Shown here in pieces: positions 38,068 to 49,695 of a stretch of 64,000 bases of DNA. Below the pieces are notes generated by a model that did not search any database, had not been told where the DNA came from, and saw nothing but the letters and a program-made list of their open reading frames with translations. The first letter of the stretch is position 1, and each line of letters begins with the position of its first letter. The stretch comes from Chromatiales bacterium (GTDB lineage Bacteria > Pseudomonadota > Gammaproteobacteria > Steroidobacterales > GCA-2729495): assembly GCA_002688175.1 (NCBI GenBank), contig NZCC01000061.1, positions 1 through 64,000 on the forward strand, written 5' to 3'. The position numbers and the translations under genes were made by a program.

Positions 38068-39048
38068 ATGAAATTAATACGCACTCTCAGCTACACATTC
38101 ACGATCATTGCCGTTGCGGCCATGATCGGTACCGGTTTTGCTCTGTGGGCTTATCGTGATATTCCAGCTACCAGCCTGGAAGCCAGGTACATGACCCGTG
38201 CATCGCGATTCATCAACATCGATGGGGTCAGGATTCATTATCGTGATGAAGGCACAGGGCCAGCTGTACTGCTACTGCACGCCAACTTCAGTAATCTGAT
38301 CGGCTGGGATCCGTGGGTCGAGGCATTGCAGGACAGTTACCGTGTCGTTCGCATGGACTTCACAAGCCACGGACTGACCGGTCCTGATCCAACCGGCAAC
38401 TACAGTCAGGAACGCACGCTCGAATTAACCGAAAAGTTTATCGGCGCAATGGATCTCGGCAAATTCTCGATCGCCGGTACCTCTATGGGAGGCACGATGG
38501 CGATCCACTTCGCACAGAAACACCCGGAACGAATCGACAACCTGATCCTGCTGAGCCCGGGATCACTCGAAGGCAAAGAAAGAACTGAAAGTGGACGCGA
38601 CCAGGTTCCCGATGCGGCTTACCTGCTCAAATACATCATGCCGCGTGCACTCCCCAAGTTCATGCTGGAATCCGGCTTTGGAGATAAGAATAAGCTGACC
38701 GATGAACTCATCGACCGCTGGTACGATATGTGGAGGCGCGAGGGCCAGCGTGAAGCCCAGCTAGATCGACTGAAACAATATAAGGCCGGTGATATCGAGG
38801 ACCTCATCCGCGCGTTGCAGCCGCGTACGCTATTGCTATGGGGTGAAGCAAATACAACAGCCGACTTCTCCCAATCCGGTAAATTTCGTGAGCTACTAGA
38901 GAATGTTGCCTCGCTGACATTTATCTCATACCCGGGAGTCGGCCACATGGCCGTGCAGGAGGCCGGACAGGAAACCGGTCGCGACGTACGACTATTTCTC
39001 GATCAGGGCCGGCAAGCTGCTCAACCAGCCGGCGCGCCCCCGCTGTAG
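38068..39048 (+). CDS. Alpha/beta hydrolase with N-terminal membrane segment
   Basis: A 326-residue hydrolase with one N-terminal hydrophobic segment (YTFTIIAVAAMIGTGFALWA). The nucleophile elbow is GTSMGG and the base His lies in PGVGHMAVQE. At the acid position the usual WGExD reads WGEANTT, with Asn where Asp is expected; an Asp a few residues later (TADFSQ) could substitute. The stop codon is provided by the first bases of a REP-like element. It is divergent from the FtsX permease and convergent with the TetR gene at 39151. Confidence 0.82.
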   Translation: MKLIRTLSYTFTIIAVAAMIGTGFALWAYRDIPATSLEARYMTRASRFINIDGVRIHYRDEGTGPAVLLLHANFSNLIGWDPWVEALQDSYRVVRMDFTSHGLTGPDPTGNYSQERTLELTEKFIGAMDLGKFSIAGTSMGGTMAIHFAQKHPERIDNLILLSPGSLEGKERTESGRDQVPDAAYLLKYIMPRALPKFMLESGFGDKNKLTDELIDRWYDMWRREGQREAQLDRLKQYKAGDIEDLIRALQPRTLLLWGEANTTADFSQSGKFRELLENVASLTFISYPGVGHMAVQEAGQETGRDVRLFLDQGRQAAQPAGAPPL

Positions 39049-39066
39049 GAATGGCTTTAGCCCGGA
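39048..39066 (+). repeat. REP-like element overlapping hydrolase stop codon
   Basis: GGAATGGCTTTAGCCCGGA, preceded by TGTA as in Pseudomonas-type REP sequences. It starts at the last base of the TAG stop and runs into a stable hairpin at 39061-39082. Confidence 0.6.
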
Positions 39067-39113
39067 TTTGGACGAATCCGGGTTGGCTTACGGCAATAAC
39101 CGTCAGTTTTTTT
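39061..39113 (+). terminator. Hairpin region with T-run, possible terminator
   Basis: A perfect 8-bp stem CCCGGATT-6 nt-AATCCGGG, then a weak ACGG/CCGT stem ending just before seven consecutive T. The strong stem is about 25 bp from the T-run, so termination is possible but not textbook. Confidence 0.45.
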
Positions 39114-39150
39114 ACTCATTGGTTACAGGGAAAATAGCCTGACCGGCACT

Positions 39151-39789
39151 CTAACTAATGACAACAGCATCTACTATCGCTTCAATCTCTGTCATCATTC
39201 CATCCCAGCCCTGTTTCTTTTCAAGGTTTGTACCCATGTACCATGGTGCCTTCACGGCACGGATGGCCAGAAAACTTGCTGCGCCCATCAGAATCCGCAT
39301 CAGGTCACTGTGTTTACGGATCACCGGGTGATTTTCAAAAATTTCCCGATGTTCCTGACCCAGTTGTTTTCGAATTTCGTTCAGTGCGGCAGAAATCGGC
39401 GTTGGATTCATGAACTGCTCAGCAAGAATCTCCACCCGTAGCGGATCTTCACGCAAGGCGTTTGCATGGTGCAGGATCATCCGCTTGAGTAACGCGGGTG
39501 TTTCCTGTTGTGACAGGTCGGCGGGTACATCGTGAAATTCAGACAGATCCGGCCAAATATTGTTTTTCTCGCCCCAGGCAGCAATGAGTCCGGGCAAACC
39601 ACCAAAGTATCGGTAGAGCAGAGCCTTACCGATACCAGCCTCCTTGATAACCTCGTTCACACCGACATTGCGCAACCCGCCGCGCTGCACCACGCTGCCG
39701 AATGCATCAATCAGCAGGGCCTCGGTCGCTTCTCGCTTAAGCCGGCCCTTACCTTTGGTGCTGTTTTTTGTTGTTGCCTCTTCCCGCAT
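39151..39789 (-). CDS. TetR-family transcriptional regulator
   Basis: A 212-residue TetR regulator. A basic N-terminal tail (TKNSTKGKGRLKREAT) precedes the helix-turn-helix (DAFGSVVQRGGLRNVGVNEV, EAGIGKALLYRYFGGLPGL). It is divergent from the ABC exporter operon that begins at 39955, with a palindromic TetR-like operator over that operon's promoter, so it is the inferred repressor of the exporter and the dehalogenase-like gene. Confidence 0.9.
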   Translation of the reverse strand: MREEATTKNSTKGKGRLKREATEALLIDAFGSVVQRGGLRNVGVNEVIKEAGIGKALLYRYFGGLPGLIAAWGEKNNIWPDLSEFHDVPADLSQQETPALLKRMILHHANALREDPLRVEILAEQFMNPTPISAALNEIRKQLGQEHREIFENHPVIRKHSDLMRILMGAASFLAIRAVKAPWYMGTNLEKKQGWDGMMTEIEAIVDAVVIS

Positions 39790-39813
39790 CGGAGTAACCT
39801 ATATCGAAAGTTG

Positions 39814-39860
39814 TTGACCTTCGTCAGACCCCTAGTATATATTTTGTGACCAGTCGGTCA
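39814..39860 (+). promoter_or_regulatory. Sigma-70-like promoter with TetR-type operator
   Basis: TTGACC (39814-39819) and TATATA (39836-39841) are 16 bp apart. Directly downstream is the palindrome TGACC-AGTC-GGTCA (39847-39860), covering the expected transcription start. This is a typical repressor arrangement. It faces the ABC exporter operon and lies 25 bp upstream of the divergent TetR gene. Confidence 0.6.
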
Positions 39861-39954
39861 ATTTTTATCGTTCCATAATAACAGCATCAACCGGCTATCT
39901 ACCAAATTTAAATGTCAGGCTCAGGCCTGAGCTTATCAATCAGGAGTAATAACA

Positions 39955-40677
39955 GTGCTAGAAGCCATCAACCTGAAAAAGACCTTTGGCGATTATGACG
40001 CCCTGAAAGGTCTGGATCTGAAGGTCAATCCCGGCGACATTTATTGCCTGCTGGGCGCAAATGGAGCCGGCAAAACGACCACCATCAACCTGTTCCTCAA
40101 CTTCATCCACCCGACAGCGGGCAAGGCCGAAGTCTGCGGCATCGATGTCACCGAACAGCCGCTCGAGACCAAAAAACTACTCGCTTATATCCCTGAGCAA
40201 GTCATGCTTTATGGCAACCTGACTGCCTTGGAAAACCTGCGCTATTTTGCACAACTTGGTGGCCACGACTACACCGAGACCGAGTACAAGTCATTTCTCG
40301 ATCGTTGCGGACTACAGAGCGGAGCCTACATCCAGCGTGTGCATCAATTCTCAAAAGGTATGCGCCAGAAAGTTGGCGTCGCAATTGCACTGGCCAAGCA
40401 GGCAAAAGCCCTGTTGCTTGACGAACCAACATCAGGTCTCGATCCGAAAGCCAGCAATGAATTTTCGGCACTGCTGATTCAACTAAAAGGTGATGATGCG
40501 TCGATTCTGATGGCAACTCACGACCTTTTCAGGGCCAAAGAAACCGGTACCCGCATCGGTATCATGCGCGAAGGCCGAATGATGCAGGAACTGGGTACTG
40601 ATGACGTGTCTCATGCCGATATCGAACGAATTTATCTCGAGCATATGCATGGCGATTCCAGTAAATACGCTGCCTGA
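39955..40677 (+). CDS. ABC transporter ATP-binding protein (ABC-2 exporter)
   Basis: A 240-residue ATPase with Walker A GANGAGKTT, a Q-loop region, signature FSKGMRQKVGVAIAL, Walker B ALLLDEPTSGLD and H-loop MATHD. The pattern is that of ABC-2 exporters (CcmA/NatA/NosF-like). GTG 39955 is preceded by CAGGAG at eight bases. It is first in an operon with two ABC-2 permeases and a dehalogenase-like protein, under a TetR-type operator. Confidence 0.93.
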   Translation: MLEAINLKKTFGDYDALKGLDLKVNPGDIYCLLGANGAGKTTTINLFLNFIHPTAGKAEVCGIDVTEQPLETKKLLAYIPEQVMLYGNLTALENLRYFAQLGGHDYTETEYKSFLDRCGLQSGAYIQRVHQFSKGMRQKVGVAIALAKQAKALLLDEPTSGLDPKASNEFSALLIQLKGDDASILMATHDLFRAKETGTRIGIMREGRMMQELGTDDVSHADIERIYLEHMHGDSSKYAA

Positions 40678-40731
40678 TCACTGCAGTTAAAGACACCTAT
40701 ACCTGGCCAGGGCCAAGAAGAGGAAATTAAC

Positions 40732-42174
40732 ATGATTATTTCGATTGCACGCAAGGAGTTTGCCGAGATCGTGCGTGATGGTCGCTTCAAGTGGACCGCT
40801 ACGATCATGGTGCTGCTGTTGCTCACTGCCATGATGGCGGGCTATCAGAAATACACCACTGCCGTGCGCATTCAACATGCTGCCCAGACAGGTACGAATC
40901 AGCAATGGCTGGATCAGGGCGACAAGAACCCGCACTCTGCCGCACACTACGGCAACTATGCGTTCAAACCTGCCGGGCCACTCTCGTACTTTGACAACGG
41001 CATCAGTAACTACACCGGTACAGCGGTTTTCATGGAGGCTCACAAGCAGAATTTTGCAATCGGCCGACCGGCATCGGACCAAAGTGCGATAGCCCGCTTC
41101 GGCGATCTGTCCGGGGCCAATATCCTGCAGTTATTGCTGCCTTTGCTGATTATTTTTCTCGGCTTCACATCCTTTTCGGGCGAACGTGAAAGCGGCACAC
41201 TCAGACAAGTCCTGAGTATGGGCGTCACCAACCGACAGCTTTTGTGGGGCAAGGCACTCGGTGTCGGCAGCGCGGTCCTGATCGTTGTCCTGCCGTGTAT
41301 CCTGGTCGGGGCACTTGCACTATCGATGGCCCAGTCAGTCGATCATGCTGAAGGCATGGCCACAAGGCTGGCGACACTGTCGATCGCCTACCTGATGTAC
41401 GCAGGGATCTTTCTGTTCCTGACACTCGCAGTGTCGGCACTGACCAGGCATGCAAGAACGACTCTCATGGTACTGGTGGGTTTCTGGGCTTTCACGGGCT
41501 TCCTGATGCCAAAGGCCGCCAGCGAGATCTCAAAATTCACCGAACCAACTCCGGCCTTCGGTAAATGGATGGCCGACATGCGTGCACACCAGTTGCGCGG
41601 CTTCGACGGCGTACCGCCGTTTGCAAAGTTTGCCCGCTACACGAAAGAACTATTCAAGGAGTATGGCGTTACCAGTGTCGGCGAACTGCCGATGTACTTC
41701 GTCGCCGTGCGACTACAAAAGCTTGAAGAATATGACTACCCGGTATTCGACCAGCACTACGGCATGATTCGAGAAGCTTACACCTCACAACGAAAGGTGC
41801 AGGACCAGTTGGGAATTTTAGCTCCAACACTACCACTGCGTTCAATATCGATGGCGATATCCGGAACGGATCTGATCCAGCACGTTAAGTTCATGACGGA
41901 TGCAGAAACTTACCGGCGAAATATGGTCGTCAAGATGAACGACTATCTGTCAAAGGCATCCGTACATCTAAATACTACATATAGCTCCAGTAATTACATG
42001 CGCGCCGATGAAGAAGTCTTTGCCATTGTGCCACCGTTCGAGTTCGAACCACCCAACCTGAATACAATGCTGGCTGAGCACCGCAGTAACTTTATTTTGC
42101 TGTTTCTCTGGCTTGCCGCCGCGATCGGTCTGGCTATATTTGCCGCCAACCGAATCAGCCTGGAGAGAAACTGA
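40732..42174 (+). CDS. ABC-2 permease with large extracytoplasmic domain (DUF3526-type)
   Basis: A 480-residue membrane protein. The first membrane segment (ATIMVLLLLTAMMAGY) is followed by a long exported loop with the family pattern HSAAHYGNYAFKPAGPL and FMEAHKQN. Then come about four membrane segments (LLLPLLIIFLGFTSF onwards), a second soluble region, and a final C-terminal segment (FILLFLWLAAAIGLAIF). This layout matches the DUF3526-containing ABC-2 permeases. The stop overlaps the next start by one base (TGATG), showing tight coupling with the second permease. Confidence 0.85.
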   Translation: MIISIARKEFAEIVRDGRFKWTATIMVLLLLTAMMAGYQKYTTAVRIQHAAQTGTNQQWLDQGDKNPHSAAHYGNYAFKPAGPLSYFDNGISNYTGTAVFMEAHKQNFAIGRPASDQSAIARFGDLSGANILQLLLPLLIIFLGFTSFSGERESGTLRQVLSMGVTNRQLLWGKALGVGSAVLIVVLPCILVGALALSMAQSVDHAEGMATRLATLSIAYLMYAGIFLFLTLAVSALTRHARTTLMVLVGFWAFTGFLMPKAASEISKFTEPTPAFGKWMADMRAHQLRGFDGVPPFAKFARYTKELFKEYGVTSVGELPMYFVAVRLQKLEEYDYPVFDQHYGMIREAYTSQRKVQDQLGILAPTLPLRSISMAISGTDLIQHVKFMTDAETYRRNMVVKMNDYLSKASVHLNTTYSSSNYMRADEEVFAIVPPFEFEPPNLNTMLAEHRSNFILLFLWLAAAIGLAIFAANRISLERN

Positions 42175-43652
42175 TGCTAAAACTGATTATTTCCCATGAA
42201 ACCAGGCAGATCATGCGCACCGGTGCGCTGTGGTCCATTCTGATCCTGCTGATTGGTGCCATCATATTCGCCTCCTGGTCCGGCGGGCGCTCGATAGAGC
42301 GTCAGGTCGAAGGCGCCGAAGCCGCCGTAACCTTCGAGAATGGCCTGCGCGATCACATGCGCAAGGACACCGAGAAGTATGCAGCTCAGGTCGAGGCCGA
42401 AGGTGGTGAATATAAATTTGCCACCGTGCGCCATGCTCCAGGCTCAGGCCCCCCGCAAGGTACCAACGCCGGTGCAGTCGGCGCTGAAACATCCAAATAC
42501 GTCACGCTACCTCCGACCGGACTCGCAGCATTGTCGGTTGGTCAGAGTGATATCCAGCTTAACTACCTGCCAATTTCACTGGCGACAACGCTGGACGTCA
42601 CCAAGAACCTGGAACTCGAGAATCCGGTCAATCTGGCCACGGGGAGCTTCGACATCGCATTCGTCGTGATCTTTCTGCTGCCGATCTTCATCCTTGCAAT
42701 GAGCTATGACCTGCTGTCGAGCGAAAAGGAGCGTGGCACACTGGCTATGATCCTCGCGCACCCAATTTCGGTCCGGGAACTAATGGCCTCCAAGATTATC
42801 TCGCGAGCAGCTGTGATGCTGGCTGTGGTTCTCGGCTTTGGCCTTATTGCACTCATCACCGTCGGCACCGGACTCGGCACTGCGGATACGTGGATGCGCT
42901 TCGCTCTGTGGATCCTCGCCACCCTGCTGTATCTGGCGTTCTGGTTCGCGCTGGCGGTACTTGTCAATGTCTATGGCAAGAACTCAGCATCGAACGGTAC
43001 CGTGCTGGCTGGAATCTGGTTGATTCTTGTAGTCATCACGCCGCAATTGGTCAGTATGCTGGCCACGACAATCTATCCGACACCATCGCGCATGGAACTC
43101 ACCATTGCTGCTCGCGAAGCCCAGACTGAAGCAGAGAAGAACTTCATGTCAAAACTGGATGAGTACTATTATGACCATCTGGAATTTGTCCCGGAAGGTG
43201 ATGAGAAGGCAATGGACTTCCTGACCCTGGCTCAAGCCAACAACAACTCAATTGAAAAGGCAGTCCGCCCGCTCTACGATAATTTTCAGAATCAGCTCAA
43301 CAAGCAGGAGGCACTCGTGCAGCGCTTTCAGTACCTGTCACCTGCTATCATGATGCAGCTGGCTCTGAATGAAGTTTCAGGAACCAGCGCTGATCGTTAT
43401 GAATATTTCCTGAGTCAGGTTTATGTTTTCCATGAAGAATGGAAAGAGTACTTCAGCACAAAATTCCTGCAACGCTACCCACTGAAACCAGCTGATTATG
43501 GTAGTTTCCCCGAGTTTCATTATCAGGAACAGCCGTTTGGGCTCGTCATTGCGAGACTTGTTCCATCATTACTCGGCATGCTGATTCTGTTTCTCGGCGT
43601 TATGCTTGTACCATTCCTGGCGTTACGAAACTACCAGGTCGCATCTCGCTAG
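42174..43652 (+). CDS. ABC-2 permease, second subunit (DUF3526-type)
   Basis: A 492-residue paralogue of the preceding permease with the same topology: TM1 near residues 15-35, an exported loop to about 155, a cluster of segments beginning IAFVVIFLLPIFILAMSY, a second soluble region, and a C-terminal segment (LLGMLILFLGVMLVPFLAL). Two non-identical permeases plus one ATPase suggest a heterodimeric exporter. The stop is 16 bp before the dehalogenase-like gene. Substrate unknown. Confidence 0.85.
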   Translation: MLKLIISHETRQIMRTGALWSILILLIGAIIFASWSGGRSIERQVEGAEAAVTFENGLRDHMRKDTEKYAAQVEAEGGEYKFATVRHAPGSGPPQGTNAGAVGAETSKYVTLPPTGLAALSVGQSDIQLNYLPISLATTLDVTKNLELENPVNLATGSFDIAFVVIFLLPIFILAMSYDLLSSEKERGTLAMILAHPISVRELMASKIISRAAVMLAVVLGFGLIALITVGTGLGTADTWMRFALWILATLLYLAFWFALAVLVNVYGKNSASNGTVLAGIWLILVVITPQLVSMLATTIYPTPSRMELTIAAREAQTEAEKNFMSKLDEYYYDHLEFVPEGDEKAMDFLTLAQANNNSIEKAVRPLYDNFQNQLNKQEALVQRFQYLSPAIMMQLALNEVSGTSADRYEYFLSQVYVFHEEWKEYFSTKFLQRYPLKPADYGSFPEFHYQEQPFGLVIARLVPSLLGMLILFLGVMLVPFLALRNYQVASR

Positions 43653-43668
43653 AGCGACCCGCCGCTCA

Positions 43669-44574
43669 GTGACTAAAATTATTCGTACCCCGGACAGTTG
43701 CTTCGAAAAACTGCCTGAATACTCATTTGATCCGCACTATATGGACCTGCCTGATCCCGATTTCGGCAGCCTGCGTATGCATTACGTCGATGAGGGACCA
43801 GAGGACGGAAAGATTATTCTGCTCATGCATGGGCAGGGTTGCTGGAGCTATATTTTCCGGCACATGATTCCCTTAGTCACGGCCGCAGGATACCGGGTCA
43901 TCGCACCTGACTTCATCGGCTTCGGTCGCTCCGATAAATTACCGACTACCGATGACTACACATTTGAGAAACATGTCGGCTGGCTCACCGCCTTTTTCCG
44001 AGCTATGGAATTTGAAGATATAACCGCTTACCTGTTTGACTGGGGCGGATTTTTCGGCCTGCGTATCGCTGCTGAAGCGCCACATTTTTTTTCACGAATA
44101 GCACTTAGCAATACACAACTGCCGATTGGTGATGCCCCCGGGCGGGAATGGTTTATTAACTGGCGAGCCGAACAGTTTGCACTACCAAAGTTTCCACAGG
44201 GAGAGATGGTCAACGACGGAGCTCACAACAAACTGAGCCCGGAAACAATCGCCGCCTTTGATGCACCATATATTGACGAAAGTTATAAGACCGGACCGCG
44301 TCGTTTCCCGATGATTCTGCCTATTTCTACGGACATGGACTCGGTTCCTGAAAATCATGCAGCATGGGAAACTCTGGCCAATTGGAAAAAACCGGTGCTG
44401 ACGCTGTTCAGCGCCAATTTCAAAGGCACCGCGATGGGTCCCGAGAAACTAATTAACCATATACCCGGCGCTAGCGGACAAGCCCACGACTTATTAAATG
44501 ACGCAGGCTTTTATATCGTCGAAGATAAACCAAACGAACTGGCACAAAGCCTGTTGAAATTTGCCGGCAGTTAA
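43669..44574 (+). CDS. Haloalkane-dehalogenase-like alpha/beta hydrolase lacking the catalytic His
   Basis: A 301-residue homologue of the DhlA-type (HLD-I) haloalkane dehalogenases, aligning from the first residues (IIRTPDSCFEKLPEYSF). It keeps the nucleophile Asp124 with the neighbouring Trp125 (LFDWGGFFGLR) and the oxyanion region HGQGCWSYIFR. The position of the catalytic base reads NDAGFYIVED, with Phe281 where dehalogenases have His. The usual acid position reads SANFKG without Asp. It should therefore not complete hydrolysis by the normal route; it may bind, trap or sense a ligand. GTG 43669 lies 16 bp after the second permease, and the family start supports it over the upstream ATG. 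It is the last gene of the exporter operon. Confidence 0.85.
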   Translation: MTKIIRTPDSCFEKLPEYSFDPHYMDLPDPDFGSLRMHYVDEGPEDGKIILLMHGQGCWSYIFRHMIPLVTAAGYRVIAPDFIGFGRSDKLPTTDDYTFEKHVGWLTAFFRAMEFEDITAYLFDWGGFFGLRIAAEAPHFFSRIALSNTQLPIGDAPGREWFINWRAEQFALPKFPQGEMVNDGAHNKLSPETIAAFDAPYIDESYKTGPRRFPMILPISTDMDSVPENHAAWETLANWKKPVLTLFSANFKGTAMGPEKLINHIPGASGQAHDLLNDAGFYIVEDKPNELAQSLLKFAGS

Positions 44575-47897: not shown

Positions 47898-48902
47898 ATG
47901 GCAAATTATTCTGTCCCAGACAGTGCACCGGTCAGTGTCGTCGTGATCGGCGTTGAAAATATCGAATCATCGCTAGAGTTTTACGCTGCTACACTTGGTC
48001 TCGAGGTCATCGAAAGACTTACCTGGGAAGGCCCAGAATTTGAGCGACACTGGGACCTGCCGACTGGCTCCTCCGCCAAATGCATTTTCCTGGGCCATGG
48101 TGCCGACCCGGTTGGGCGAATTCAGATCATGGAATTCAACGCATCCGACAGAAAACTTGTCCGGCCACAGAAAATAAGGTGTGCCACCGGACTCTTCAAC
48201 CTGAATGTTTACACCAAAGATATTGTTAGCGATTGCGAGATGCTCAAATCGCAGGGATTCAACTTCTGGAGTGAACCGGCACTGAACGATTTCGGCCCAG
48301 CCGTTGGTGAGATCAGCGAGGTTGCATTTGACGGACCGGATGGCATCGTCATCAATATGATTCAACTCATCACCGAGGACCCGAATACCTTGAGCGGCAA
48401 GTTACTCGCATTCCTGGATGATTACGGCTGTACAAGCACTGGATTCACAGCTGTTGCGACAACTTCGCATGGTGTACGGGACATGGATAGAGCGCTCGAA
48501 TTTTATTATGGACCACTTAAAATGGCGCTGTTCATGGAAACAACTCTTAAGAGCGCCGATAACAACATAGCCATCGGCCTGCCGGCAGATGCCGAAACCC
48601 GCAGTGTATTTATCCAAGGCGGCCATGAATACGGCAAGATTGCATTGTCAAGCCCGATAAATTATGAAATCCCCAACCTCATACCCGATGCTGTACCACC
48701 GAATATTGGCTATCTCGCCCAATCATTTCAGGTTAATGACCTGAACCTGGTCGCCAACGAATGTATCAATATCGACGTCGATATTATCTCCGGACCGGAA
48801 GAGATTACTTTGCCGGGTCGCGGGTTGTGCCGGGCAATGGTGGTTCGAAACCCGGGGTCCGGGGCGTTGCAGGAGATCTTCCAGCAGATCCGGGAAATCT
48901 GA
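47898..48902 (+). CDS. Two-domain VOC (glyoxalase/dioxygenase superfamily) protein
   Basis: A 334-residue protein with two vicinal-oxygen-chelate domains: residues about 10-155 (VSVVVIGVENIESSLEFYAA, IQIMEFNAS, GPDGIVINMIQL) and about 175-330 (VATTSHGVRDMDRALEFYYG). Metal ligands are not all obvious, so enzymatic activity is uncertain. Its last 98 bp overlap, tail to tail, the 3' end of the ParA-like gene on the other strand. Confidence 0.82.
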   Translation: MANYSVPDSAPVSVVVIGVENIESSLEFYAATLGLEVIERLTWEGPEFERHWDLPTGSSAKCIFLGHGADPVGRIQIMEFNASDRKLVRPQKIRCATGLFNLNVYTKDIVSDCEMLKSQGFNFWSEPALNDFGPAVGEISEVAFDGPDGIVINMIQLITEDPNTLSGKLLAFLDDYGCTSTGFTAVATTSHGVRDMDRALEFYYGPLKMALFMETTLKSADNNIAIGLPADAETRSVFIQGGHEYGKIALSSPINYEIPNLIPDAVPPNIGYLAQSFQVNDLNLVANECINIDVDIISGPEEITLPGRGLCRAMVVRNPGSGALQEIFQQIREI

Positions 48903-49695
48903 CGGTATCGGTATATTTTGGCCTGACGGCTGACTTATCAGTCTGCTCCGGCGTTGCGGGGCCGGCTGGCAAGTCTTTTTTCGGCTTCAGCAAGTCGCGC
49001 GGCGTCAACTCAGTTTCAAGCTGATCCTCCAGCCAATTGGTGACCGACTTCCAGCTGTCAAGATCTTTGGATACCCGGGAAGGCTGCATCTCGTGAATGC
49101 TGAGCCCCTGCTCAGCAGCAAATACATAGTTCTGGCTGTCGCGCAATTCACCTACTACAGATATGGATAGCCGCTCCAGAAATCGTTTGAGTTTTCGATA
49201 ACTGAGCGTATTCTCTCGAACCCGGTTCGCAACAACGCCCAGCCGACCCATACGACGACTGACTTTCGCGACAACCAGCAAGTCGGACACAAACCGGGCC
49301 GCGGCGTAAATATCAATATCTGAAGGTAATGCCGGTACCAGGATCGCATGGGCGCCACGCGTAAACTCGGCCAGGTCCGGTGCCTGCAATGCGGCCGGAG
49401 TATCGATGACGAGATATTTGATATGGAGCGGTACCCGCATCTGGAAACTGCGGGTCATTGTCGTGTCATGCTCGCAGGCAGAGATACCATAGACCTCTGG
49501 TCGTTTGTCAGAACGATTCTGCATCCAGCGTAATGCAGAACCCTGTGGATCGAAGTCCATTAACGCGACCGGATGGCCGGATGCTGACAGGAATCCAGCT
49601 ATATTTGATGCGACGGTAGATTTTCCTGAACCGCCCTTGGGATTGATAACAACAATCCGTTTCAGATCAGGGCGACTGGGTGCTTTCAACAACAT
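48805..49695 (-). CDS. Orphan ParA/MinD-like P-loop ATPase
   Basis: A 296-residue deviant-Walker ATPase with NPKGGSGKST near residues 18-27, MDFDPQGSALRWM as switch I region, and VIDTPAALQAPDL as switch II. No ParB or parS is adjacent, so it belongs to the orphan positioning ATPases (McdA/ParC/MipZ-like) rather than chromosome partitioning. The C-terminal 60 residues are Pro/Arg-rich and low in complexity; they lie largely in the stretch overlapping the VOC gene, suggesting a secondarily extended tail. The cargo is unknown. Confidence 0.85.
   Translation of the reverse strand: MLLKAPSRPDLKRIVVINPKGGSGKSTVASNIAGFLSASGHPVALMDFDPQGSALRWMQNRSDKRPEVYGISACEHDTTMTRSFQMRVPLHIKYLVIDTPAALQAPDLAEFTRGAHAILVPALPSDIDIYAAARFVSDLLVVAKVSRRMGRLGVVANRVRENTLSYRKLKRFLERLSISVVGELRDSQNYVFAAEQGLSIHEMQPSRVSKDLDSWKSVTNWLEDQLETELTPRDLLKPKKDLPAGPATPEQTDKSAVRPKYTDTVRFPGSAGRSPATPRTPGFEPPLPGTTRDPAK

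Follow-up and report, generated by a model that had tools for sequence, protein, structure and literature searches.

The locus and its product

The stretch of DNA analyzed here, in the following referred to as the window, spans 64,000 nucleotides and encodes a homolog of the haloalkane dehalogenases of the HLD-I type, which we call the F-type protein (Table 1). Its gene starts 16 bp behind the second of two ABC-2 permease genes, so close that co-transcription of permease and dehalogenase homolog in this genome is plausible. The permease genes, an ATPase gene and a divergently oriented regulator gene make up an ABC exporter locus, with a serine hydrolase gene on its far side.

Table 1. Genes and active-site codons of the F-type locus (window coordinates)
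Feature	Position	Strand	Remarks
Membrane-anchored alpha/beta hydrolase, Ser nucleophile motif (abH38)	38068..39048	+	most persistent neighbor in relatives
TetR-type regulator	39151..39789	-	divergent from exporter genes
ABC transporter ATPase	39955..40677	+	optional neighbor
ABC-2 permease with DUF3526, first subunit	40732..42174	+	optional neighbor
ABC-2 permease with DUF3526, second subunit	42174..43652	+	optional neighbor
Dehalogenase homolog (F-type), group A	43669..44574	+	301 aa plus stop; GTG start; HLD-I fold
Gln56 (CAG)	43834..43836	+	Glu in 112/116 canonical relatives
Asp124-Trp125, nucleophile and first halide Trp	44038..44043	+	invariant
Trp161, new invariant F-type Trp	44149..44151	+	Ala/Gly in most canonical relatives
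Trp165, second halide Trp equivalent (DhlA Trp175)	44161..44163	+	invariant
Phe251 (TTC) at catalytic-acid position	44419..44421	+	Asp in 117/117 canonical relatives
Phe281 (TTT) at catalytic-His position	44509..44511	+	alignment, clade comparison

Both its sequence and its predicted structure place the window protein within the HLD-I family. It matches the NCBIfam profile for haloalkane dehalogenases (PRK00870/NF002043) with 352.8 bits, against a cut-off of 265, and its closest solved structures by sequence are the HLD-I enzymes DmrA (4mj3), DpcA (6f9o), DccA (5esr) and DppA (2xt0), with 44% identity to each of the first two. An AlphaFold model with a mean pLDDT of 95.3 and a pTM of 0.94 predicts the alpha/beta-hydrolase core with the HLD-I cap, and compares with 4mj3 at a TM score of 0.94. 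A second copy, which likewise has Phe at the His position, is found on another contig of the same genome (C23, 57963-58853); it is 44% identical to the window protein and bears an N-terminal membrane anchor.

Active-site residues

Haloalkane dehalogenases rely on a catalytic pentad, which comprises a nucleophilic Asp, a His base, an Asp/Glu acid and two halide-stabilizing residues (PMC10503415). In the window protein, as judged by alignment to DmrA, DpcA, DccA and DppA, the nucleophile and both halide Trp are present, and the base and the acid are absent: Phe281 (motif NDAGFYIVED) occupies the position of the catalytic His, and Phe251 that of the Asp in the SDxDP motif, the catalytic acid behind strand 7. 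The initial annotation of this DNA had described a DhlA-type Asp124-Trp125 pair, a Phe in place of the catalytic His and an acid position lacking Asp, and translation, which gives LFDWGG as the motif of the pair, and alignment agree with it on all three counts. Beyond these features, we find two further changes, namely Gln in place of Glu56, which converts the motif HGEP to HGQG, and Phe in place of Gln123.

The same pattern emerges from a comparison of 34 Phe-type with 117 canonical sequences. All 34 of the former have Phe281, so that none keeps the Asp/His pair, and all 117 of the latter have both His and Asp. The sharpest switches from the canonical to the F-type state are E56 to Q, P57 to G/A, Q123 to F/L, L128 to Y/F, I129 to F, A161 to W, I180 to M, A210 to P, D251 to F/L/I/M, H281 to F and Q284 to I/V, while D124, W125 and W165 are common to both types. 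The surroundings of Asp124 are more apolar in the F-type proteins, and the oxyanion loop is altered as well. Since 50 of the 298 positions are invariant throughout the F-type clade, the persistence of a single residue carries only moderate weight as evidence. We further observe that the oxyanion motif HGQG is reduced to Gln-Gly in several members of group A (see below), in the forms ATQG/STQG, TPTQG and YPSQG (L036, L037, L043-L048).

Distribution and evolution of the F-type clade

The 34 members of the clade come from 24 genomes, all of one gammaproteobacterial family of uncultured bacteria. In a tree of 148 of the compared sequences, the Phe type forms one side of a single branch with an SH-aLRT support of 100, which argues for a single origin. 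The narrow distribution recurs at every scale that we searched. Among 147 relatives, homologs were found in 52 genomes, and those of the window's own family all have Phe281, while those of other families of the order all have His and Asp. Of the 80 loci that turned up in 84,980 scanned species genomes, just seven carry the Phe type, all from the window's family. Likewise, a search with a profile of the clade, covering 396, 369 and 398 genomes at the levels of order, class and phylum, respectively, returned Phe-type matches in the window's family alone; these score about 430 bits or more, except for one truncated copy at 222 bits, whereas the remaining matches score about 360 bits or less and were canonical where inspected. 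A search of viral contigs returned no relatives, and searches of the open-access literature for dehalogenase pseudoenzymes or incomplete pentads brought up no published account of this clade.

Within the clade, three paralog groups can be told apart, two of which are present in the window genome. Group A comprises the window type, group B the anchored proteins, usually with the motifs WSYS..GFFLIED, and group C, which splits off earliest in the tree, has WCYI..FDWGS or similar. Asp/Glu at position 251 survives only in the four members of group C, which suggests that the His was lost before the acid.

As two catalytic residues are lost, one might think of a decaying pseudogene or of an assembly error. 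Such an explanation is hardly conceivable, given the conserved Phe281, the intact reading frames and the low dN/dS, which amounts to 0.04-0.14 in seven of the eight F-type pairs that are measurable within moderate dS. A single-base error at the Phe codon, an objection raised together with the initial annotation, is excluded because the change from His (CAT/CAC) to TTT takes two base changes; moreover, both TTT and TTC are in use among the clade members (disregarding row L060 where it seems out of frame). Judging by these codons and by the constraint on the gene, the Phe281 state is neither error nor decay.

Genomic context

The initial annotation saw the dehalogenase homolog as part of a unit with the DUF3526-type exporter and the TetR regulator, and asked whether the Phe and this operon context are conserved together. 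The first half of this expectation is borne out by the clade, the second is not, as most copies of the gene occur without the exporter. Among 40 genomes of the family, some of which are incomplete, so that absences are approximate, the exporter is found in 13, a group A gene in 18 and both in 4, a co-occurrence at chance level (Fisher p 0.31). Only the window genome, G003 and G001 have exporter and regulator in a cluster with a group A gene, which in G001 is split over two contigs, and this linkage is confined to one genus (g1). In G033, exporter and group A gene lie on different contigs, and the other 14 genomes with a group A gene have no exporter beside it. Conversely, G013 and G036 carry the exporter and the regulator in the same cluster without any such dehalogenase homolog. 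The proposed unit is thus not supported as a general feature, and the exporter belongs to the cluster as an option rather than as an obligatory functional partner.

The tight arrangement in the window is a local rearrangement, since in G003 a ferrochelatase-like gene and two cytochrome genes lie between the exporter and the group A gene, and the window has lost all three. More typical companions are a serine hydrolase, a diheme cytochrome c and a cytochrome c', with which the gene is clustered in varying combinations at 13 of the 18 group A loci, including the window; DUF4404, CBS and HD-GYP genes are often found there, too. The neighbors of groups B and C are different, with short-chain dehydrogenases, SnoaL-like proteins and an AMP-binding ligase.

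Several further observations concern these neighborhoods. The family shares a variable cluster (window 38068-44574; L033, L036, L217, L225) of serine hydrolase, cytochrome c' and diheme cytochrome c, to which the TetR/ABC exporter, the ferrochelatase-like membrane protein, a Crp/Fnr regulator and the F-type homolog are optional additions. The ferrochelatase-like protein is membrane-anchored and has a weak ferrochelatase similarity (Pfam E 1e-4, below the cut-off); in L033 (12197-13690, minus strand), its gene lies between the exporter and cytochrome genes. At each of the four group C loci (L056, L058, L064, L070), the homolog adjoins a gene whose product weakly resembles AMP-binding ligases. 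Finally, small ParA-like ATPase genes occur near the group A gene (window 48805-49695, minus strand) and next to the group B paralog of the window genome (L052:8091-8939).

Possible functions of the F-type proteins

We consider it somewhat more probable than the alternatives taken together that the F-type proteins represent a repurposed, non-hydrolytic dehalogenase fold, which serves in ligand binding or in other Asp124-dependent chemistry. According to this proposal, a clade of former HLD-I dehalogenases has shed the hydrolytic half of its active site, i.e. the canonical residues His281, Asp251, Glu56, Gln123 and Gln284, and retained the front half with Asp124, Trp125 and Trp165. The classical two-step conversion of haloalkanes would then not take place in such proteins. 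Instead, a hydrophobic or electron-poor ligand would most likely bind beside Asp124 in an aromatic pocket lined by Trp125, Trp161, Trp165 and Phe281, where it would either be held non-covalently or be used in a non-hydrolytic reaction that depends on Asp124. Two considerations speak against this proposal: covalent chemistry would equally account for the strictly kept Asp124, and a backbone or distant group may substitute in the activation of water.

Covalent chemistry is at the heart of the initial annotation, which envisaged a natural trap, sensor or carrier. In this scenario, an alkyl halide or another electrophile would alkylate Asp124, and the ester would persist for want of a His-activated water, which would turn the protein into a self-labeling trap, sensor, carrier or sink. 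In haloalkane dehalogenases, removal of the His blocks the hydrolysis of the ester, but not necessarily the first step, and the F-type sequences combine precisely a retained nucleophile and invariant halide Trp residues with the loss of base and acid. The precedent invoked for it is sound: DhaA H272F, the first design of HaloTag, traps the covalent ester at Asp106 (PMC13376172). Nevertheless, we regard the scenario as improbable. A whole protein would be spent per reaction, which is costly, the 301 residues include no sensing or DNA-binding domain, the gene is conserved without the exporter and regulator that the unit was meant to include, and the altered oxyanion loop, with P57 replaced by G/A and the HG lost in several members, could weaken even the first step. 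Binding without hydrolysis, or some other reaction dependent on Asp124, is in our view likelier than a suicide trap. The opposite scenario, in which the proteins are still active hydrolases and a different residue, or the environment of Asp124 and Gln56, activates the water, appears just as doubtful. It might draw on the invariant His273 and His38 and on the Asp/Glu at position 251 of group C, and some so-called pseudoenzymes have migrated catalytic residues (PMC10211241). However, His273 and His38 also occur in most canonical enzymes and are thus no gained substitutes; a check for an acid that has moved to the site after strand 6 found none, this position being Asn or Thr; and no clade-specific acid or base is obvious from the residue comparison.

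A less remote alternative, although we still deem it unlikely, is a different kind of catalysis, in which Asp124 would act as nucleophile or base without water activation, as in an elimination, isomerization, transfer or decarboxylation. The invariance of Asp124 and of the aromatic pocket is in line with this idea, as are neighbors such as hydrolases, short-chain dehydrogenases and cytochromes; these neighbors differ among groups A, B and C, however, and indicate no substrate. OleB, the precedent for this idea, presumably keeps its His, which speaks against it as a model for proteins that have lost theirs. Dehalogenase-like folds are nevertheless known to serve other chemistry, with OleB as an example (PMC10503415). 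Compared with these alternatives, the repurposed non-hydrolytic fold remains our preferred explanation.

Implications and comparison with known systems

Databases label the F-type proteins as haloalkane dehalogenases, as they score above the NCBIfam cut-off, although two of the five catalytic residues are gone. Because two of the five defining residues fail, we find this name unfit for them, and F-type genes in metagenomes should not be taken as evidence of dehalogenation. At the same time, the clade offers a single switch, well supported by the tree, by which a thoroughly studied active site kept its nucleophilic half while its hydrolytic half was replaced, together with three paralog groups to compare, one of them still with the acid. 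This makes it directly testable whether evolution can turn a dehalogenase into a binder, into a covalent trap or into an enzyme of another kind. Should the trap scenario be true after all, these proteins would be a natural counterpart of HaloTag, serving to sense, carry or soak up a specific electrophile covalently.

The closest known systems are the HLD-I enzymes DmrA, DpcA, DccA and DhlA, with which the window protein shares the fold, the nucleophilic Asp and both halide Trp. It differs from them by Phe in place of the His, a hydrophobic residue in place of the acidic Asp, Gln56, Phe123 and the new Trp161. The HaloTag prototype DhaA H272F resembles the F-type proteins in that it has Phe at the His position and keeps the nucleophile, but it is an engineered HLD-II enzyme, whereas the F-type proteins are natural, belong to HLD-I and have lost the acid as well. 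Lastly, the beta-lactone decarboxylase OleB (HLD-III-like) likewise resembles dehalogenases but has a different function (PMC10503415); unlike the F-type proteins, it belongs to another subfamily and catalyzes a reaction whose substrate is known.
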